From positions 496,001 through 560,000 of the forward strand of contig NZ_JBFUPK010000002.1 in the NCBI RefSeq assembly GCF_041355105.1: DNA of 64,000 nucleotides, given 5' to 3'. This document shows positions 6,691 through 36,481 of this stretch, piece by piece. A program made the position numbers and the translations under genes. Each line of letters begins with the position of its first letter. The first letter of the stretch is position 1. The notes beneath the pieces are model-generated. The model had not been told where the DNA came from. It made no database searches and saw only the letters and a list, made by a program, of their open reading frames with translations. The stretch comes from Terriglobus sp. RCC_193 (GTDB taxonomy: Bacteria > Acidobacteriota > Terriglobia > Terriglobales > Acidobacteriaceae).

Positions 6691-7335
6691 ATGGCCTGCA
6701 TGGAATTCCACCTTGACCCCGCCAGCTTCCGCGCCCTTATCTTCGATTGTGACGGAACGCTGGTGGAGACGCTGCCCGCCCACATTGCCGCTTTGCGGAC
6801 CACGCTGGGCCCTATGGGCATTTTGCCCACAGCAGAGTGGGCCCGCGGACTGTATGGCACCACACCGCCGCAGGTGTTGCTGGCCATTGAGAAGACCTAC
6901 GGACCCATTCCCGTGCCACATGCTGAGATTCTGAAGCACTGGGTGACAAATTACGCCGAGAGTCTGCATCTGCTGGAACGTATTGTTCCCGTCTGCGATG
7001 TGGCGCGGCAGTTTCAGGGCAAAGTTCCCATGGTCGTGGCGTCGAACAACCAGCGCGCCAACATTGAAGCCACGCTCCGCGCCGTGGGCCTTGACGGTGT
7101 CTTTGGATGGATCGTTTCAGGCGAGGATGTTCCGCGAGGCAAACCCGCACCGGATCTCTTTCTGGAAGCCGCGCGGCGCATGCAGGTGGCGCCGCAGGAC
7201 TGCCTTGTCTTCGAAGATTCGCGCGAAGGCGTGGAGGCGGCGGAAGCTGCTGGGATGCGCGTGATCCGCATTGATGCGGGTGTCCTCGTCCCTCAGCCGT
7301 CCAACGCCTGCAACACACAAAGTGCATCATCCTGA
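6691..7335 (+). CDS. HAD-superfamily phosphatase / beta-phosphoglucomutase-like
   Basis: 214 aa from MACMEFHLD; an alternative ATG lies at 6700. All HAD motifs are visible: FDCDGTLVE (nucleophile D19 and acid D21), VVASNN for motif II, RGKPAPDLF supplying the lysine, and VFEDSREGVEAAEAAGM for the metal-binding acids. The helical cap between motifs I and II fits the subclass with beta-phosphoglucomutase and sugar-phosphate phosphatases. Cytoplasmic. It lies alone and divergent from the sugar operon, which suggests a role with sugar phosphates; the substrate is not predictable. Confidence 0.88.
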   Translation: MACMEFHLDPASFRALIFDCDGTLVETLPAHIAALRTTLGPMGILPTAEWARGLYGTTPPQVLLAIEKTYGPIPVPHAEILKHWVTNYAESLHLLERIVPVCDVARQFQGKVPMVVASNNQRANIEATLRAVGLDGVFGWIVSGEDVPRGKPAPDLFLEAARRMQVAPQDCLVFEDSREGVEAAEAAGMRVIRIDAGVLVPQPSNACNTQSASS

Positions 7336-29359: not shown

Positions 29360-31018
29360 ATGGCTGCAACCACAATGGAAGAGTTCGGCGAGTCAGCCGA
29401 GGTGATGCACGCGGCAGAACAGCCGTGGCGACCGAAGCATAACCCCTGGCTGATTGCCCTCACAGTAACCCTGGCTACCTTCATGGAGGTGCTGGATACC
29501 TCCATCGCCAATGTGGCGCTGCCACATATCGCAGGAGGACTCGGCGCGTCGCAGGACGAAGCCACGTGGGTCATCACCAGTTACCTGGTGGCGAACGCCA
29601 TCATCCTTCCGGCTTCTGCGTATCTGACCACGTTCATCGGGCGCAAGAAGTTCTACATGATCTGCGTGGTCATCTTTGGCATCTCGTCAGCCATGTGCGG
29701 ACTGGCGCCTACCCTGCCTATCCTGATCCTGTTCCGGCTGATCCAGGGTGCTGGCGGCGGCGGACTTGGGCCCAGCGAGCAGGCCATTCTTGCCGATACC
29801 TTCGAGCCGAAGCAGCGAGGGCAGGCATTCGCGCTGTACGGTCTGGCCGTGGTTGCGGCTCCGGCGATTGGACCAACGCTGGGTGGATGGATCACCGACA
29901 ACTATGACTGGCGATGGATCTTCTTCATCAATGTGCCGGTGGCGATCCTGTCGCTGGTCTTGACGACTCGCATGGTGGAAGATCCTCCGCACATTACCAA
30001 GGAAGTGGCTGCGAACAAGCTCAAGGGTCTGAACCTGGATTACATTGGGTTCGGTCTGCTGGCACTTGGCTTCGGGTCGCTGGAGTTTGTGCTGGATAAG
30101 GGCCAGGAAGACGACTGGTTCGGTTCGCAGATGATTACGATCTTCGCCATTGTGTGCGCGGTGTCGTTGATCAGCCTGATCGTGTGGTCGCTGTGGCGGT
30201 TGAAGAAGGGCGATAAACCCATCCTGAACCTGACACTGTTCAAGCAGCGTAGCTTTGCCGTGTCGTTCACGCTGCTGTTTGTGCTGGGCTTCTCGCTGTA
30301 TGCGTCGACCGTGCTGATTCCGCAGTATGTGCAGACGTTGCTGGGTTACACGGCGGAGCTTGCGGGGCTTGTCATCTCACCGGGCGGCGTCACGATCATG
30401 CTGATGATGCCGGTTGTTGGCATCTTGATTACGCGTCTTGATCCGCGTGTGATGATCTCGTTTGGCTTTGCGCTGCTGACGTATTCGCTGTACCTGATGC
30501 ACTCGCACATGAATCTTGGGTCGTCGTTCGCGGATATTATGTGGCTGCGCATTGTGCAGGCGGCTTCGCTGGCGTTCCTGTTCATTCCCATCAACACCAT
30601 CGCGTACAACAACATTCCGCGTTCGCAGAACAACGATGTCAGCGGACTTTCGAATCTTGCGCGTAATGTGGGTGGGTCCGTGGGTACGGCGTTCGTGGCG
30701 ACGATGTTGTCACGCCGCTCGCAGGCGCATCAGGGGTACATGATCCGCAACCTGACACCAACCAGCCAGGCCTTCAACGACCGGGTGAACAGCGTTGCCG
30801 GATTCCTGCAGGGCAGTCGCGGTCCCGGAGGTGGCAACCATGCCGATGCGATCTCCGCAGCGCAGGGCAACATCTACAACATGCTGCACAACCAGGCGTC
30901 GATGCTGGCTTATCTGGACATCATCGCGGTGCTGGCGGTGTTCACGGCCATTATGGTTCCGCTGGTGTGGATTGTGCCGAAGACCACTCACGCGGAAGGC
31001 GACGCACCCGCGCACTAA
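29360..31018 (+). CDS. DHA2-family MFS multidrug efflux transporter (EmrB/QacA type)
   Basis: 552 aa with 14 predicted hydrophobic helices. Seen: VALPHIAGGLGASQDEATWVI near residue 52, the motif A-like loop TFIGRKKFYM, LIQGAGGGGLGPSEQAI near 128, and motif C APAIGPTLGGWI near 171. DHA2 proteins export drugs or toxic metabolites using the proton gradient. No membrane-fusion partner is adjacent. The nearby XRE-cupin regulator is a candidate controller, but the nucleotidase lies between them. A hairpin terminator follows. Confidence 0.92.
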   Translation: MAATTMEEFGESAEVMHAAEQPWRPKHNPWLIALTVTLATFMEVLDTSIANVALPHIAGGLGASQDEATWVITSYLVANAIILPASAYLTTFIGRKKFYMICVVIFGISSAMCGLAPTLPILILFRLIQGAGGGGLGPSEQAILADTFEPKQRGQAFALYGLAVVAAPAIGPTLGGWITDNYDWRWIFFINVPVAILSLVLTTRMVEDPPHITKEVAANKLKGLNLDYIGFGLLALGFGSLEFVLDKGQEDDWFGSQMITIFAIVCAVSLISLIVWSLWRLKKGDKPILNLTLFKQRSFAVSFTLLFVLGFSLYASTVLIPQYVQTLLGYTAELAGLVISPGGVTIMLMMPVVGILITRLDPRVMISFGFALLTYSLYLMHSHMNLGSSFADIMWLRIVQAASLAFLFIPINTIAYNNIPRSQNNDVSGLSNLARNVGGSVGTAFVATMLSRRSQAHQGYMIRNLTPTSQAFNDRVNSVAGFLQGSRGPGGGNHADAISAAQGNIYNMLHNQASMLAYLDIIAVLAVFTAIMVPLVWIVPKTTHAEGDAPAH

Positions 31019-31073: not shown

Positions 31074-31383
31074 TGCTCTTGCGCGGAACCTTCCGCAATG
31101 GGATTGGGGAGGGTACCCCCTCCCCCCTGTTTTTGCAAAATCGTCTTGCGAAAGGACTTACAGCGCTGGTGCCTGTAAGATCGCCTGCCCATGGGGGTTA
31201 GAGGCAAAATCCTCTTTCTATGGGACTTACGGCTGCGTGGCTAGTGCCGTTAAGAGCTTCTACTTCTATTGTAGCTATCCAGAGGAAATACCATGCCAAC
31301 TGTATTTCCCTTTGGTTTGTTATGGATAATCCGCAGCGGCTATTGACAACAATTTTGGTTTGACGAAGCGGTGTCTTTTAATG
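31074..31383. other. Gap between MFS gene and R-M operon; probable intergenic repeat and island edge
   Basis: No gene seen. The first part (GGTACCCCCTCCCCCCTGTTTTTGCAAAATCG then AGGACTTACAG, given here in pieces) resembles intergenic sequence I associate with acidobacterial genomes, and has a GGGAGGGTACCCCCTCCC palindrome. From about 31230 the sequence becomes AT-rich up to the vsr stop, which suggests the left edge of the island lies here. I see no tRNA or integrase. Confidence 0.3.
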
Positions 31384-31791
31384 TTATCTTCCGAGAAAAT
31401 CTTCGACCTTAGAAAGTAAGCCCGGCGAGGATTCAATTTCACATTCCCAAATGATCAGCATCCGCCAACCGAGTTTTTCGAGGCTGACACTATTTGCAAG
31501 ATCACGGGCTACATTCCTTTGTAACTTGGGAACCCAGTATTCCGGACGCGTTCCAGGTAGCCGACCTTCCCGGCAACCGGAATGCTGGTGCCAAAAACAG
31601 CCGTGGACAAATATCACTTTGCGGCGGCCAGGAAAGACAACATCTGGCTTTCCTGGAAGATCTGTGCGATGAAGTCTGAAGCGATAACCAGCCTTATGTA
31701 GAAGAGAACGCAGAAAAATTTCGGGCTTGCTATTCTTGCTACGAATCCGCCTCATATTCTCGCTGCGTCGCCTTGCATCGAGACTGTCCAT
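31384..31791 (-). CDS. vsr: Very short patch repair endonuclease (Vsr)
   Basis: 135 aa, full length for Vsr. It nicks next to the T of T:G mismatches that arise when 5-methylcytosine deaminates. Seen: the N-terminal RRRSENMRRIRSKNSKPE, catalytic LPGKPDVVF with Asp near residue 50, and the active-site histidines in FVHGCFWHQHSGC near residues 61-73; GWRMLIIWECE closes the fold. Third gene of the R-M operon, 6 bp after the restriction gene. Its presence is strong support for an active cytosine-C5 methylase beside it. Confidence 0.96.
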   Translation of the reverse strand: MDSLDARRRSENMRRIRSKNSKPEIFLRSLLHKAGYRFRLHRTDLPGKPDVVFPGRRKVIFVHGCFWHQHSGCREGRLPGTRPEYWVPKLQRNVARDLANSVSLEKLGWRMLIIWECEIESSPGLLSKVEDFLGR

Positions 31792-31797
31792 GCTTGT

Positions 31798-32700
31798 TTA
31801 GATGGCAAGGTCCATCGGAAGGTCAGAAATATCCTTCAGACGCTTTCCCTCGATCATGATTCGGAGCAGGTCAGCACTTTCACTCTGCTGAAGTTCTTCG
31901 ACTGCAGCTACCAGTTCTGGAAGTGCGAAATGGTAAACACAATCCACGTCACCGGTACCAAGTGCGAGTGAAGAGAGGCGGCTAGGAGTTGGCTCTCCCG
32001 TCACTACAACAACATGTGGAAGACGCCCCTTCCGGTTTCGGATGAGATTTAACGCTTCAGAACGAGCATTTTGTGCGCGGTCACTGCGCATAGTCCACTT
32101 ACACGAGATGCTGGCGTGCAAGATTGGCAGTCCACCGTTGACTTCCCGCAGACTCGCGAGTCTGCAAACATCCTCATCAACCAGTTCTTTCGGGAGATTG
32201 ATGTTTGCGTCGGCCTCAAGAGCCCGCACCACAACGATATCCGGCGCAATAGTGTAGTCATTTCCCAAGGCTGTTCGTAGTTCAGGGTCTTTCGCGGAGG
32301 CCCTTGCAAGTGCTGCAAGGTGACCGTACTGTTCGAAGCGAGCTAACACTGCCTGGTTGCGTGCTGTGATCTGTTCGATTGTCCAAGTGCCTGGCCGCAA
32401 ATGAGCAAGTTCAGCAAATGTCGCCCTGATGTAGTTAGCAACTATCTCTTCAAACTTGCGACCGGACATCTGTCCGGCTAGACGTTCTCCCTTAATTTCA
32501 GTTCCGATCCGCTGGAGAATGCCGATGGCTATAGCAACGCTGGCACGGTTTGAGCTATCGGCATTAGCAGGAATTCCCTTTTCGTCTGTAAAGAGCACAC
32601 GTTCCATCAACGCTGCATGAAATGTGCGTCTTGCTTCTGCAAAAAACGAGGGTGCTTTCTGCAGTTCGGTGGAGGAAGGGACCGGCACGATATCGCTCAA
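31798..32700 (-). CDS. Type II restriction endonuclease, NgoMIV family
   Basis: 300 aa. The active-site pattern of NgoMIV is present with identical spacing: P153-D154 (TIAPDIVV), then S199-C200-K201 (ISCKWT) 45 residues after the Asp, and E215 14 residues after the Lys in NARSEAL. NgoMIV is a tetrameric Mg-dependent enzyme cutting GCCGGC. The family match suggests the same target; other members vary. Start is a TTG whose bases overlap the methylase stop (TTGA), with AAGGTGG just upstream, so expression is coupled to and probably weaker than the methylase. Confidence 0.92.
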   Translation of the reverse strand: MSDIVPVPSSTELQKAPSFFAEARRTFHAALMERVLFTDEKGIPANADSSNRASVAIAIGILQRIGTEIKGERLAGQMSGRKFEEIVANYIRATFAELAHLRPGTWTIEQITARNQAVLARFEQYGHLAALARASAKDPELRTALGNDYTIAPDIVVVRALEADANINLPKELVDEDVCRLASLREVNGGLPILHASISCKWTMRSDRAQNARSEALNLIRNRKGRLPHVVVVTGEPTPSRLSSLALGTGDVDCVYHFALPELVAAVEELQQSESADLLRIMIEGKRLKDISDLPMDLAI

Positions 32701-33692
32701 CTTGCCACCTTGAAAAGCCGTCTTGCAGTAAGCGCTAAAACAACTTGCGTTGCAACTGCCTTGGCTACAGGTGGAGGGAATGCGTTGCCGACTTGTCTAT
32801 AGGCATGTGTCTTTGCCCCGGCGAATTGCCATTCATCAGGGAATCCTTGAATACGTGCGGCCATGCGAACGGTTAGGCGAGGCATCCCCACAAAATCTCG
32901 TTCTGGAGCTTCCTCTGCCAAGGTGCTTCCATTTACGCCTAAGGCTGCCCATGCTCTACGGGCACGCGTCGGTCCCAGATCGGGCCCTCCGTGCTTCTTG
33001 CTTCCTCCGACCAAGGTGGGTGCGATTTCATCCGCTCCGGCTTTCCAGGCATCCATACCTTTCCACCCGTTCACTGCCATGAGGTCGTGCAGCGCCTCTC
33101 CTACAGTTTTAGGAGGCATGGTTGATGGGATTGGCCATCCAAATGAATCGAAGTAGCGTTCTTGTAATGCCACAAATACAACTCGGGGCCTTAGCTGCGG
33201 AACGCCAAAATCCGAAGAGTTCAGCAGGTGCCATCCTGTCTTGTAGCCAAGCTTTTTCAGTTCACCAGCAATATATTTTCGATAATCTGCAAAAACCGCA
33301 TCGAGGATTCCACGGACGTTTTCAATCAAGACGGCCTTGGGACGAAGTTGGTCGATGATGTGGATACCCGTAGGGAAAAGGTTTCTCTCATCCTGATCAC
33401 CTAACTGTTTGCCAGCCTTCGAGAATGGTGGGCATGGAAGCCCACCAGATACGATGTCGACCCCCTTGAACGCGGAGACATCCGTAAATTCCCGAAGGTC
33501 TCCTTGTATAACATTCCACTTCGGTCGGTTGAAACGTAACGTTCTGCAGGCATGCGGATCAATTTCAATGAGTCCTGCATGTTCAATGCCCGCCTGCTCG
33601 AGACCGAGTGCTTCTCCCCCTGCGCCTGCGCAGAGTTCCAAGGTTGTGAGGCCAGATTTCATTGATGCAAGTTTAGCTGTAGAACGGCTCAT
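32697..33692 (-). CDS. DNA cytosine-C5 methyltransferase of the R-M system
   Basis: 331 aa from MSRSTAKLAS; another ATG lies 10 codons downstream at 33662 and neither has a strong ribosome-binding site. C5-methylase motifs in order: I LELCAGAGGEALGLEQAG near residue 18, IV SGGLPCPPFS with catalytic Cys87, VI LIENVRG, VIII QLRPRVVFVAL, and X YRQVGNAFPPPVA at the C-terminus. The target domain around residues 195-265 should set specificity; coupling to an NgoMIV-family enzyme suggests GCCGGC. An 11-bp-arm palindrome lies 68 bp upstream. Confidence 0.95.
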   Translation of the reverse strand: MSRSTAKLASMKSGLTTLELCAGAGGEALGLEQAGIEHAGLIEIDPHACRTLRFNRPKWNVIQGDLREFTDVSAFKGVDIVSGGLPCPPFSKAGKQLGDQDERNLFPTGIHIIDQLRPKAVLIENVRGILDAVFADYRKYIAGELKKLGYKTGWHLLNSSDFGVPQLRPRVVFVALQERYFDSFGWPIPSTMPPKTVGEALHDLMAVNGWKGMDAWKAGADEIAPTLVGGSKKHGGPDLGPTRARRAWAALGVNGSTLAEEAPERDFVGMPRLTVRMAARIQGFPDEWQFAGAKTHAYRQVGNAFPPPVAKAVATQVVLALTARRLFKVAS

Positions 33693-33759
33693 AAGCGGCT
33701 CGATTTTCCAAAGGTTCCGTTGAAGGAAATGGCTATCAGGTGCGAAAACGAGAGGAAGC

Positions 33760-33784
33760 AACTGGTTACAATTTGTAACCAGTT
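33760..33784. promoter_or_regulatory. Perfect palindrome IR1 between HNH-domain gene and methylase
   Basis: AACTGGTTACA (33760-33770), 3-nt centre ATT, then the exact complement TGTAACCAGTT (33774-33784). It lies 14 bp after the HNH-domain gene stop and 68 bp before the methylase start. It could be an operator for the methylase or a hairpin. It shares an arm pattern with IR2 and IR3. Confidence 0.6.
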
Positions 33785-33797
33785 CGAGGGCTATTGA

Positions 33798-34139
33798 CTA
33801 GCCTTGTTTTGCATGCTCGCGGATACGAGCAGCCTCTTCCCGTAGAAAAGTCCGCTTGCCATTGAATCTTGCCCAGACCTTCTCTTCAAGCTTTCCTCCA
33901 CGACTCATCCCTCTCGCTGTCCTAGTGGAATCAAATCTCGCGAGATTATGCAGCTTCAGTGCTACGCCATTCGGATTACGGTATGTCGCGTTCAAAGCGT
34001 TTACTGGGGAAAGAGCGCGCAACTGGTCGCTCAGTGCTTGAATTTTCGGATTGGCGGCGGAGATATGTGAACTTGGAAGTTCGTGGAACAGGTCGAGCGC
34101 AAGAACGATTTCGTCTTCTCTCCAAACGGGATTACGCAT
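33798..34139 (-). CDS. Lone N-terminal domain of an HNH restriction-type endonuclease (no HNH present)
   Basis: 113 aa. MRNPVWREDEIVLALDLF, RNPNGVALKLHNLARFDS near residues 53-70 and GGKLEEKVWARF near 82-93 match the conserved N-terminal module found in front of HNH domains in many restriction-type nucleases. The HNH metal motif is absent: the stop comes where the nuclease should begin, and nothing HNH-like follows before the methylase. It is first in the R-M operon and 17 bp downstream of a lepA remnant. It may be a truncated nuclease or a stand-alone DNA-binding protein that controls the operon. Confidence 0.7.
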   Translation of the reverse strand: MRNPVWREDEIVLALDLFHELPSSHISAANPKIQALSDQLRALSPVNALNATYRNPNGVALKLHNLARFDSTRTARGMSRGGKLEEKVWARFNGKRTFLREEAARIREHAKQG

Positions 34140-34155
34140 AGGAATTTCAGAATAA

Positions 34156-34293
34156 TCTACTCGCCCACTTTTAGGACGGCTAGGAAGGCTTCCTGAGGGA
34201 TGTCTACTTTGCCGATTCGCTTCATGCGCTTTTTGCCCTCTTTTTTGCTTGTCGAGGAGTTTGCGCTTTCGGCTGATGCCGCCTCCGTAGCAC
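34156..34293 (-). pseudogene. Second copy of the lepA 3' end (remnant)
   Basis: 138 bp align to the resident lepA 3' end (34612-34748) with six substitutions and one extra T. In the lepA frame five substitutions are synonymous (Val, Leu, Pro, Lys, Gly codons) and one is Asp to Gly; the extra T in the T-run at 34231-34236 breaks the frame. The stop TAG is kept at 34157-34159. It is a fragment of a lepA from a related genome rather than a fresh local copy. Confidence 0.9.
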
Positions 34294-34527
34294 CTAGCGG
34301 GTTCTGATCGTCGGGATGGCCAGCCGCGCGCTTCTAGGAGGCGCGGCGCGAGACATACTTGCTCCTGCTAAATGCGGTGGGCCGCGCTTGTTTTCGAGAC
34401 GGGTGTTTACGGCACGGCTGAAGCCGTGCCCTTCCGAAAGAAGTTCGCGCTCGCGCGCGAATGCCCAGGTGAGCTTCGCGCACCTGGGGCACCCAGTGAA
34501 TCAGTTTTTGACGTTGGATTTTGCTTC

Positions 34528-34552
34528 AACCAGTGACAGTTTGTCACCGGTT
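34528..34552. repeat. Palindrome IR2
   Basis: AACCAGTGACA, centre GTT, then TGTCACCGGTT: 10 of 11 arm positions pair. Same architecture as IR1 and IR3 (arm ending in ACA, 3-nt centre, arm beginning TGT). Confidence 0.6.
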
Positions 34553-34579
34553 CAAATTCGCGAGATAGATCAAAATATT

Positions 34580-34606
34580 CAACCCGCTACAAGCTGTAAC
34601 GGGTTG
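34580..34606 (-). terminator. Palindrome IR3, possible lepA terminator
   Basis: CAACCCGCTACA, centre AGC, then TGTAACGGGTTG: 11 of 12 arm positions pair. It starts 6 bp after the lepA stop codon and, on the lepA strand, is followed by AATATTTTG, so it can act as a terminator hairpin. It also belongs to the IR1-IR3 family. Confidence 0.5.
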
Positions 34607-34612
34607 AGTGTT

Positions 34613-36412
34613 CTACTCGCCGACTTTTAGGACGGCGAGGAAGGCTTCCTGGGGGATGTCTACTTTGCCGATTCGTTTCATGCGCTTTTTGCCCTCTTTT
34701 TGCTTGTCGAGGAGTTTGCGCTTTCGGCTGATGTCGCCGCCGTAGCACTTGGCTAGGACGTCTTTCTTGATGGCCGATACCGTCTCGCGCGCTACGATCT
34801 TGCTGCCGATGGCGGCCTGGATGGCTACCTCAAACATCTGGCGGGGGATGAGCTCCTTCATCTTGTGGACGAGGGCTTTGCCGCGGTCGTAGGCGAAGTC
34901 GCGGTGGACGATGATGCTGAGTGCGTCGACGGGTTCGCCGGAGACGAGGATGTCCATCTTCACCATGGGGCTGGTCCAGGTGCCGGAGAGGTGATAGTCA
35001 AGTGAGGCGTAGCCGCGGCTGACGGACTTGAGGCGGTCGTAGAAGTCGAGCACGATCTCATTGAGCGGGAGCTCGTAGGTGATCATGACGCGGTTGGCGG
35101 AGACGTACTCCATGTTCTGCTGCTTGCCGCGCTTTTCTTCGACGAGCTTGAGGATGTTGCCGACGTACTCCTCGTTGGTGAGGATTTTGGCGATGATGAC
35201 GGGCTCTTCGATGGAGTCAATGGTTGTGGGGTCGGGCCAGCGCGACGGGTTTTGCACTTCAAGCGTGGTGCCGCCGGTGAGGTGGACCTTGTAGCCGACG
35301 CCGGGGGCGGTGGTGATGAGGTCGAGGTTGAACTCGCGCTCGAGGCGCTCCTGAATGATCTCCATGTGGAGGAGGCCGAGGAAGCCGCAGCGGAAGCCGA
35401 AGCCGAGGGCTACCGACGATTCCGGTTCGAAGGAGAAAGACGCGTCGTTGAGCTTGAGTTTTCCCAGCGCCTCACGTAATGCTCCGTGCTCGTGGCTCTC
35501 TACCGTGTAGAGGCCGGCGAAGACCATGGACTTGATGTCTTCAAAGCCGGGGAGCATTTCGGTGGCGGGGTTGGTGGGGTCGGTGATGGTGTCGCCGACC
35601 TTGGTGTCTGCCACGTCTTTAATGGTGGCGACAAAGAAGCCGACTTCGCCCGCGCTGAGTTCGGCGATTTCAACGGGCTTGGGGGTGAGGACGCCCATGG
35701 ATTCCACGTCGAAGACTTTGTTGTTGCTCATGAGCTTGATGCGCTGGCCCTTGCGGAGGCGGCCGTTGATGACGCGGGCGAGTACGATGACGCCCTTGTA
35801 GGGGTCAAACCATGAGTCGAAGATGAGCGCCTGGAGCGGCTTTTCTGCGTCGCCGGTGGGCGGCGGCATGAGCGTGACGACCGCCTCGAGAATGTCTGCC
35901 ACGTTGAGGCCGGTCTTTGCGGAGACGGCGATGGCGTGATCGGCAGGGAGGCCGACGGTGGTCTCGATCATCTCCTTGGTGCGCGGGATATCCGCAGAGG
36001 GGAGGTCGATCTTGTTGATAACAGGGATAATTTCGAGGCCGTTGGAGATGGCCAGATAGGCGTTGGCGAGGGTTTGCGCTTCGACTCCCTGCGACGCGTC
36101 GACCACCAATAATGCGCCTTCGCAGGAGGCGAGGGAGCGCGAGACTTCGTAGGAGAAGTCGACGTGGCCGGGGGTGTCGATGAGGTTGAGCTGGTAGGTC
36201 TGGCCGTCGTGGGCCTGGTACATCATGCGCACGGAGTGGGCCTTGATGGTGATGCCGCGTTCACGCTCGAGGTCCATGGCGTCGAGGACCTGCGCCTGCA
36301 TCTCTCGCTGCGTGAGCGAGCCGGTGAGTTCGAGGAGGCGATCAGAAAGGGTCGACTTGCCGTGGTCGATGTGCGCGATGATCGCGAAATTACGAATGAA
36401 TTTGGGGTCCAT
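34613..36412 (-). CDS. lepA: Elongation factor 4 (back-translocase)
   Basis: 599 aa from [11 protein letters not shown], with AAGGGTG upstream; the longer frame to 36442 is unlikely. Ribosome-bound GTPase that back-translocates stalled ribosomes. Seen: G1 [15 protein letters not shown]3 [13 protein letters not shown]4 [11 protein letters not shown]5 [11 protein letters not shown]-like domains, and the LepA-specific C-terminus ending [13 protein letters not shown]. The last 45 codons are repeated at 34156-34293 beside the R-M operon, which marks the 3' end as the junction of the accessory island. A 27-codon membrane-peptide gene precedes it on the same strand. Confidence 0.97.
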
Positions 36413-36481
36413 GCTCACCCTTGATTCTACAGGGGCAGGCACTTCGTGCGGTTTCTCGATGCGATCTTGCAGAGACTACGA

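Follow-up and report, generated by a model that had tools for sequence, protein, structure and literature searches.

A second lepA 3' end beside a restriction-modification operon in Terriglobus sp. RCC_193, and extra lepA ends in related and distant genomes

Organization of the lepA locus

We analyzed a stretch of 64,000 nucleotides from Terriglobus sp. RCC_193 (contig NZ_JBFUPK010000002.1, positions 496,001 to 560,000; hereafter the window), in which a second copy of the 3' end of lepA, here called lepA', lies between the intact gene and a restriction-modification (R-M) operon. Genomes, loci and contigs are referred to below by G, L and C numbers where they have to be told apart. The following features make up this arrangement:

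34613..36442, minus strand: lepA (translation elongation factor 4), intact resident copy (TIGR01393 lepA equivalog, E 1.1e-293)
34156..34293, minus strand: lepA', second copy of the lepA 3' end (match to 34612-34748)
33798..34139, minus strand: open reading frame (ORF) of 113 amino acids, first in the operon, ATG start (PADLOC HNH model, E 1.2e-8)
32697..33761, minus strand: M, C5 cytosine DNA methyltransferase (PF00145, E 3e-66; TIGR00675)
31798..32700, minus strand: R, NgoMIV-type restriction endonuclease (PF09015, E 2.2e-117)
31384..31791, minus strand: Vsr mismatch endonuclease (TIGR00632, E 8.7e-44)

The fragment lies on the same strand as the resident gene and spans its last 45 codons, with its right end one base beyond the stop codon. 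Local alignment over 138 columns revealed six substitutions and one single-base insertion in lepA', in agreement with the count of a first-pass annotation made from the sequence alone, and blastn inside the window gave 94.9% identity between the two ends (E = 3.8e-58). A search of the whole genome with the lepA end returned two matches at E <= 0.001, the resident end and lepA'. Read in the lepA frame, which the inserted base breaks in lepA', the changes are GGC>GGA, GAC>GGC, AAA>AAG, CCC>CCT, CTC>CTA and GTC>GTG, and the codon comparison bore out the earlier statement that five of the six are synonymous, GAC>GGC (Asp>Gly) being the sole non-silent one. The annotation had further considered this silent excess unexpected for a drifting dead copy. 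The differences are indeed mostly silent, but five of six is weak evidence when taken alone, with a binomial p of 0.018 against one third at third positions, the expectation for dead DNA, and of 0.057 against a mixed null of 0.43, which is our own estimate for a dead local copy facing a constrained gene.

Behind lepA' the operon runs in the order 113-amino-acid ORF, M, R and Vsr, all on the minus strand. The distance of 17 bp that had been given between the lepA' stop codon and the R-M operon was found again, but it leads to the start of the 113-amino-acid ORF, which is neither the methyltransferase nor the endonuclease.

Relationship of lepA' to lepA of sister species

In trees built on lepA ends of 137-138 bp, lepA' grouped with lepA of G008 and not with the resident gene (FastTree 0.73, ultrafast bootstrap 90), both falling inside a group formed by the own genome, G008, G005 and G013. 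A clustering of lepA' with the resident end against all relatives, which the first-pass annotation had named as speaking against its proposal of an import, was not seen in the tree. At columns 72 and 111 lepA' agrees with G008 while the resident end differs; the other four differences set lepA' apart from the resident, G008 and G005 alike, and three of them are at third codon positions.

The slot between lepA and the efflux gene

lepA and an EmrB-type efflux gene are convergent and enclose a variable slot, in which the spacer between the two lepA ends (34294-34611, 318 bp) contains no recognised gene. The limits of the slot and the repeats of the spacer are as follows:

29360..31018, plus strand: EmrB-type efflux gene, right neighbour of the slot (TIGR00711; cluster 6 in L029, L030 and L048)
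31305..31322, no strand: right end of the variable slot (blastn similarity resumes at L048:12696 for G008 and 12679 for G005)
34579..34607, minus strand: inverted repeat just after lepA (spacer self-match on the opposite strand), by its sequence probably the lepA terminator
34400..34497, no strand: dispersed REP-like repeat (own-genome search of the spacer; 46 genome matches, 45 of them elsewhere, within spacer positions 115-252)

The EmrB-type neighbour is common to the own genome and the sister species G008 and G005, whose lepA genes are 92.9% and 92.5% identical to the resident copy. In blastn the own locus matches the sister loci up to the stop codon of lepA (L048:9389 against G008, 9387 against G005), the match returns 62-79 bp after vsr ends, and no gene cluster inside the slot is common to the three genomes. 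The slot of G008 holds a ParA-like ATPase, a helix-turn-helix protein and a small ORF, and that of G005 two small ORFs, a second, older lepA end (75.7% in blastn) and an ORF of 591 amino acids. The G+C content of the R-M genes and the 113-amino-acid ORF is 49-52%, compared with 60.5% for lepA and 58.3% for the window.

Extra lepA ends in Terriglobus and its family

The suggestion of the first-pass annotation that lepA ends may be a recurring island site was borne out, with second or third lepA ends in five of 19 Terriglobus genomes (the own genome, G005, G015, G016 and G017) and in at least 9 of 149 genomes of one alphaproteobacterial family. The extra ends in Terriglobus are followed by different genes. 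PIN-domain proteins occur in the slots of G016 and G017, and a PIN-like protein of G015 falls just under the Pfam cut-off; what looks by eye like an antitoxin start precedes them. Other slot genes encode an AAA_21 ATPase with DUF4276, a DpnI-type protein, a Bro-N protein, an AAA_15/21 ATPase together with a protein weakly like DUF4435, an Mrr-NACHT protein, a Z1-domain helicase with a methyltransferase, and an IrrE-type peptidase with a helix-turn-helix protein. G017 carries an array composed of lepA, the Bro-N gene, ATPase genes, other genes, a lepA fragment, the PIN protein gene, a second lepA fragment and the NACHT protein gene. The G016 (contig C32) and G017 copies represent a single lepA' lineage (98 in the tree) with different cargo behind it. 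An altered block in these copies was considered as the mark of one mobile unit and set aside: it is exact in these two genomes only, and five others of the 398 family genomes match it with 2-3 mismatches. The Bro-N gene of the G017 slot also has its own 3' end repeated at a later point (L035, oriented 6897-7138; 71% identical), and the slot of G004 (L039:4437-6056) contains an ORF of 539 amino acids whose N-terminus gives weak ATPase-like matches and which has an adenylosuccinate synthetase domain.

The family was searched with the own lepA end as query and two candidates were scored per genome, a design that old copies in other genera may escape; 346 of the 398 genomes matched. Outside the genus two matches were found in 13 genomes, and in G191 alone did the second end share contig and strand with the first, a few kb away. 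The two lepA ends of G101 and of G143 are on different contigs, those of G163 are on contig edges, and the other nine cases are split or short second matches.

Extra lepA ends in alphaproteobacteria

Of 80 lepA loci from named genomes, two carried a second end on the same strand: L184 of Rhodoplanes serenus and L189 of Pseudolabrys sp. Within the family to which the Rhodoplanes genome belongs, at least two lepA-end matches were obtained in 31 of 149 genomes, and among 38 loci fetched from it (29 of the 31 plus nine single-match controls, a set enriched for copies) nine had a second end 0.5-2.5 kb behind lepA. A small DUF4258-like ORF follows the lepA stop by 10-65 bases in nine of 39 loci and is itself followed by a DUF2283-type gene in seven, the two forming a predicted toxin-antitoxin-like pair. 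A Pfam scan limited to four of these ORFs supported the assignment in G398, placed G399 below the cut-off and gave nothing for G436 and G424. A lepA fragment follows in seven of the nine DUF4258-like loci versus three of the 30 others (p = 0.0002), or in 6/7 versus 4/32 if G436 and G424 are not counted as DUF4258-like. In five of the seven the fragment begins no more than about 20 bases from the end of the DUF2283-type gene, while it comes after a further MazE/MazF-like pair in G452 and about 0.3 kb on in G436; MazE/MazF-like pairs are near in several alphaproteobacterial loci. The literature search found no paper naming both DUF4258 and DUF2283. One copy, that of G503, is nearer to lepA of G456 (5/73 differences) than to its own lepA (6/70), which supports import. 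In most of the extra-end cases looked at, acquired-looking genes follow closely, often toxin-antitoxin, R-M or other defence genes.

Shape of the fragments and codon-position bias

Across genomes the extra ends measure about 57-208 bp of a gene of 1.8 kb, and in 14 of 18 pairs the right end is within 4 bases of the stop codon. The left ends vary (-208, -200, -184, -179, -177 and onwards to -63), and in the legible cases of a set of 11, one of which was illegible, they run from -208 to about -126 with no single position; a fixed recombination core is therefore unlikely.

Differences between copy and resident are concentrated at third codon positions, which account for 117 of 189 differences in the 18 pairs (p = 1.3e-7 against 0.43 and p = 9e-16 against one third, for pairs that are non-independent). 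The share is 71 of 100 in alphaproteobacteria and 46 of 89 in Terriglobus, and 76% between resident genes. This silent bias fits copies with much of their history inside working genes.

Control scans and a gyrA fragment

When the ends of 1234 ORFs from 100 loci were scanned uniformly for second copies of the 3' end only, lepA was flagged in four loci (L030, L033, L048 and L189), the copies in L035, L038 and L184 escaping this procedure. Three other ORFs were flagged: the Bro-N gene of the G017 slot, one case of a 51-bp repeat on the edge of a contig and one of an internal repeat. Among 614 ORF ends in 864 kb of the own genome, seven were picked out, namely lepA, gyrA and five more that resemble repeats, adjacent ORFs with similar ends, or questionable ORFs. 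The last ~160 bp of gyrA (NCBIfam) are repeated about 400-560 bp past its stop, giving one further feature outside the window:

G000:C2:162568-162722 (L295:2568-2722): second gyrA 3' end

This fragment shows a 19-base gap and five nucleotide changes in four codons, all silent. Compared with gyrA of G005 over 146 columns, the resident end has one difference and the fragment four; G005 itself has a single gyrA end only, within the stretch searched, and the 400 kb covered of G008 do not include its gyrA. The gyrA spacer contains an inverted repeat and a REP-like unit, a layout as at lepA, without an evident module. lepA is thus a hot place for extra ends and not the sole one.

Comparison with known integration systems

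Variable defence genes between conserved flanks, as seen here, are also typical of integrase-free defence hot spots, which lie between core genes and are exchanged by homologous recombination. Unlike at such hot spots, a fragment of the core gene has been left behind, which is not normally expected of such exchange.

Prophages provide a second comparison. Four of 17 IMG/VR records with a lepA end (L197, L198, L199 and L204) have an integrase gene (phrog_1) directly after the lepA stop, which we take to be of the tyrosine type. Two of the four have a lepA-end repeat of 41-45 bp at the other side, and the other two have none with the query used. These prophages resemble the window locus in using the same gene end as a landing place and, in two records, in repeating part of lepA at the far side, but they have the integrase gene beside lepA and a short repeat of 41-45 bp, and the window locus has neither. 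PMC10688831 likewise reports prophages of Latilactobacillus curvatus that integrate into lepA.

A third comparison comes from R-M genes themselves, for which two papers that cite Nobusato et al. 2000 describe 'long and variable target duplications' (PMC3031569) and 'insertion with long target duplication' (PMC1643837); the idea also appears in PMC4978471 and PMC2749054. The likeness consists of R-M or other selfish modules, long and variable direct repeats of host sequence (138 columns in the window, 57-208 bp in other genomes) and no transposase or integrase seen. The differences are that here the R-M genes lie outside the repeat pair, 14 of 18 repeats end no more than 4 bases from where a housekeeping gene stops, the differences are silent-biased overall, the companions are frequently toxin-antitoxin-like and two phyla are involved.

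Origin of lepA' and alternative explanations

Import from a close relative, as the first-pass annotation had proposed, is the best reading and has moderate support: we see about an even chance that lepA' comes from the lepA gene of a closely related Terriglobus strain, whose 3' end entered together with the DNA that followed. The slot between lepA and the EmrB-type gene would then be a place where defence or toxin-antitoxin genes are exchanged, and an incoming lepA end with its cargo would have been joined into it without replacement of the resident end. Most likely one side would be anchored by homology, in lepA or in the right-hand neighbour, and the other joined non-homologously inside the last 140-200 bp of the donor lepA. 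The resident gene would stay whole with the cargo directly behind the fragment, lepA' would then decay, beginning with the one-base break of its frame, and fragments longer than about 200 bp would presumably be lost via recombination between the repeats. We infer both the direction of import and the type of joining.

The grouping with G008 and the mostly silent differences favour such an import. Also in its favour are the break of homology at the lepA stop with unlike slot genes in the two sister species, the low G+C of the operon, the scattered occurrence of the M-R-Vsr unit, the extra ends with varying genes behind them in other Terriglobus genomes, the G503 copy and the silent changes of the gyrA fragment. 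Several observations weigh against it. Over the 137 shared positions lepA' equals G008 at 132 and the resident at 131, so that donor and recipient ends are not firmly separable. The resident end has the lowest end/body ratios among 78 Terriglobus pairs (0.35-0.37 in comparison with G005, G008 and G013), and it might therefore be the resident end, rather than lepA', that was exchanged. Clear silent bias is absent from five of the seven Terriglobus pairs (all but those of the own genome and G015) and from G398 and G511, and its significance is reckoned against a null of our own making and over pairs that are not independent. In the tree the G015 copy falls with the lepA gene of its own genome (95). 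With the exception of one 24-column comparison, alphaproteobacterial copies resemble the resident gene beside them more closely than they resemble one another, and toxin-antitoxin distances track lepA distances (r 0.65, 15 pairs, six genomes); these copies therefore point to very close donors or to some local copies, and they give no sign of a mobile cassette with its own lepA' that moves as a unit in the alphaproteobacteria. Finally, the annotation had expected a donor with the R-M operon directly after lepA, and none was found: the stretches of the 12 other endonuclease-bearing family genomes contain no LepA coding sequence, a weak negative given the short flanks (222-538 bp before M in ten, M unseen in L078 and L080). 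In the window lepA' is about 395 bp before M, so the three of these ten genomes with 222-287 bp before M could not show the same layout.

One rival explanation is an insertion with long target duplication, in which both copies would start identical and then drift. This class is in print for R-M genes, in the papers cited above, and the association of fragments with DUF4258-like loci in the copy-enriched set agrees with it. An origin of both repeats from the recipient matches most alphaproteobacterial copies and the G015 copy, which are nearest to their own resident, but the silent bias and the grouping of lepA' with G008 are unexpected of a local copy. Inserted genes do lie between the repeats in other genomes for the toxin-antitoxin-like genes; in the window only an inverted repeat, a palindrome and the dispersed repeat lie between them, with the R-M operon outside, and we regard such an insertion as rather unlikely to have produced lepA'. 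The landing of phages at lepA elsewhere, in the IMG/VR records and in L. curvatus, raises another explanation, the remnant of a tyrosine-recombinase island that used the lepA 3' end as attachment site, carried a substitute end and lost its integrase. Among the matches listed for the 19 Terriglobus genomes, a PF00589 search, whose reach leaves serine recombinases aside, gave none downstream of lepA; the nearest listed is in G006, about 15 kb from the gene on the side of its start. With left ends at different positions, no single core and repeats longer than those of the phages, such a remnant appears decidedly improbable. Least credit goes to an accidental local duplication of the gene end that is unconnected with the operon and only by chance close to it; we hold this very improbable: lepA' does adjoin the resident gene and is close to it in sequence, and gyrA has a similar fragment with no evident module, but extra ends are concentrated at lepA in the uniform scan and acquired-looking genes stand close behind most of them.

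The extra-end signature recurs at lepA in two phyla. A broader proposal, which we consider unlikely as it stands, would make the last ~200 bp of conserved genes, lepA above all and also gyrA, the mobility handle of tiny integrase-free cassettes. Cargo with a core-gene end would be moved by homologous recombination at the gene end, the gene would be restored each time, and lepA-cargo-lepA'-cargo arrays would be stacked in more than one phylum. If lepA and other core-gene ends regularly received toxin-antitoxin and restriction genes in the absence of an integrase, leftover ends would be fossils of cargo donor and arrival order and would offer a searchable signature for the uptake of small defence modules without a mobility gene, addressing the open question of how such modules spread.

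Operon genes and palindromes

The 113-amino-acid ORF has weak similarity to part of HNH endonuclease models and no match in Pfam, NCBIfam or PHROGs. It is present in 20 of the 398 family genomes, the own genome being the only Terriglobus one, with short relatives in G323 (52%) and G057 (49%) and longer relatives elsewhere. Among the genomes for which the place of lepA is listed, only G193 has it within a few kb of lepA on the same contig, about 3.6 kb off on the opposite strand. The listed start of M is TTG and the true start is probably internal; for the resident lepA ORF the listed start is GTG and an internal ATG is likely. R is full length, covering PF09015 positions 2-275 of 275 and matching NgoMIV (PDB 1fiu, E 1.3e-105) across residues 19-300. 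Members of the NgoMIV family cleave and methylate GCCGGC, which may also be the recognition sequence of the operon in the window. R matches NgoMIV over nearly its whole length and a C5 methyltransferase and Vsr adjoin it, as in type II R-M systems of this kind with Vsr, from which the operon differs by the extra ORF in front. The M-R-Vsr unit is scattered in the family, the endonuclease occurring in 13 of the 398 genomes and in the own genome alone of its genus.

Two palindromes are found in the slot:

33762..33782, no strand: palindrome GGTTACAAATTGTAACC between the 113-amino-acid ORF and the methyltransferase gene
34530..34550, no strand: imperfect palindrome GGTGACAAACTGTCACTGG in the spacer, resembling the one before the methyltransferase

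They are the two copies of GGTkACAAAyTGTmACCrG in the own lepA slot, and none further was present at <=1 mismatch in the 800 kb of the own genome scanned. The palindrome recurs inside the Bro-N gene beside lepA ends in G016 and G017 (L034:4242-4262; L035:11409-11429).

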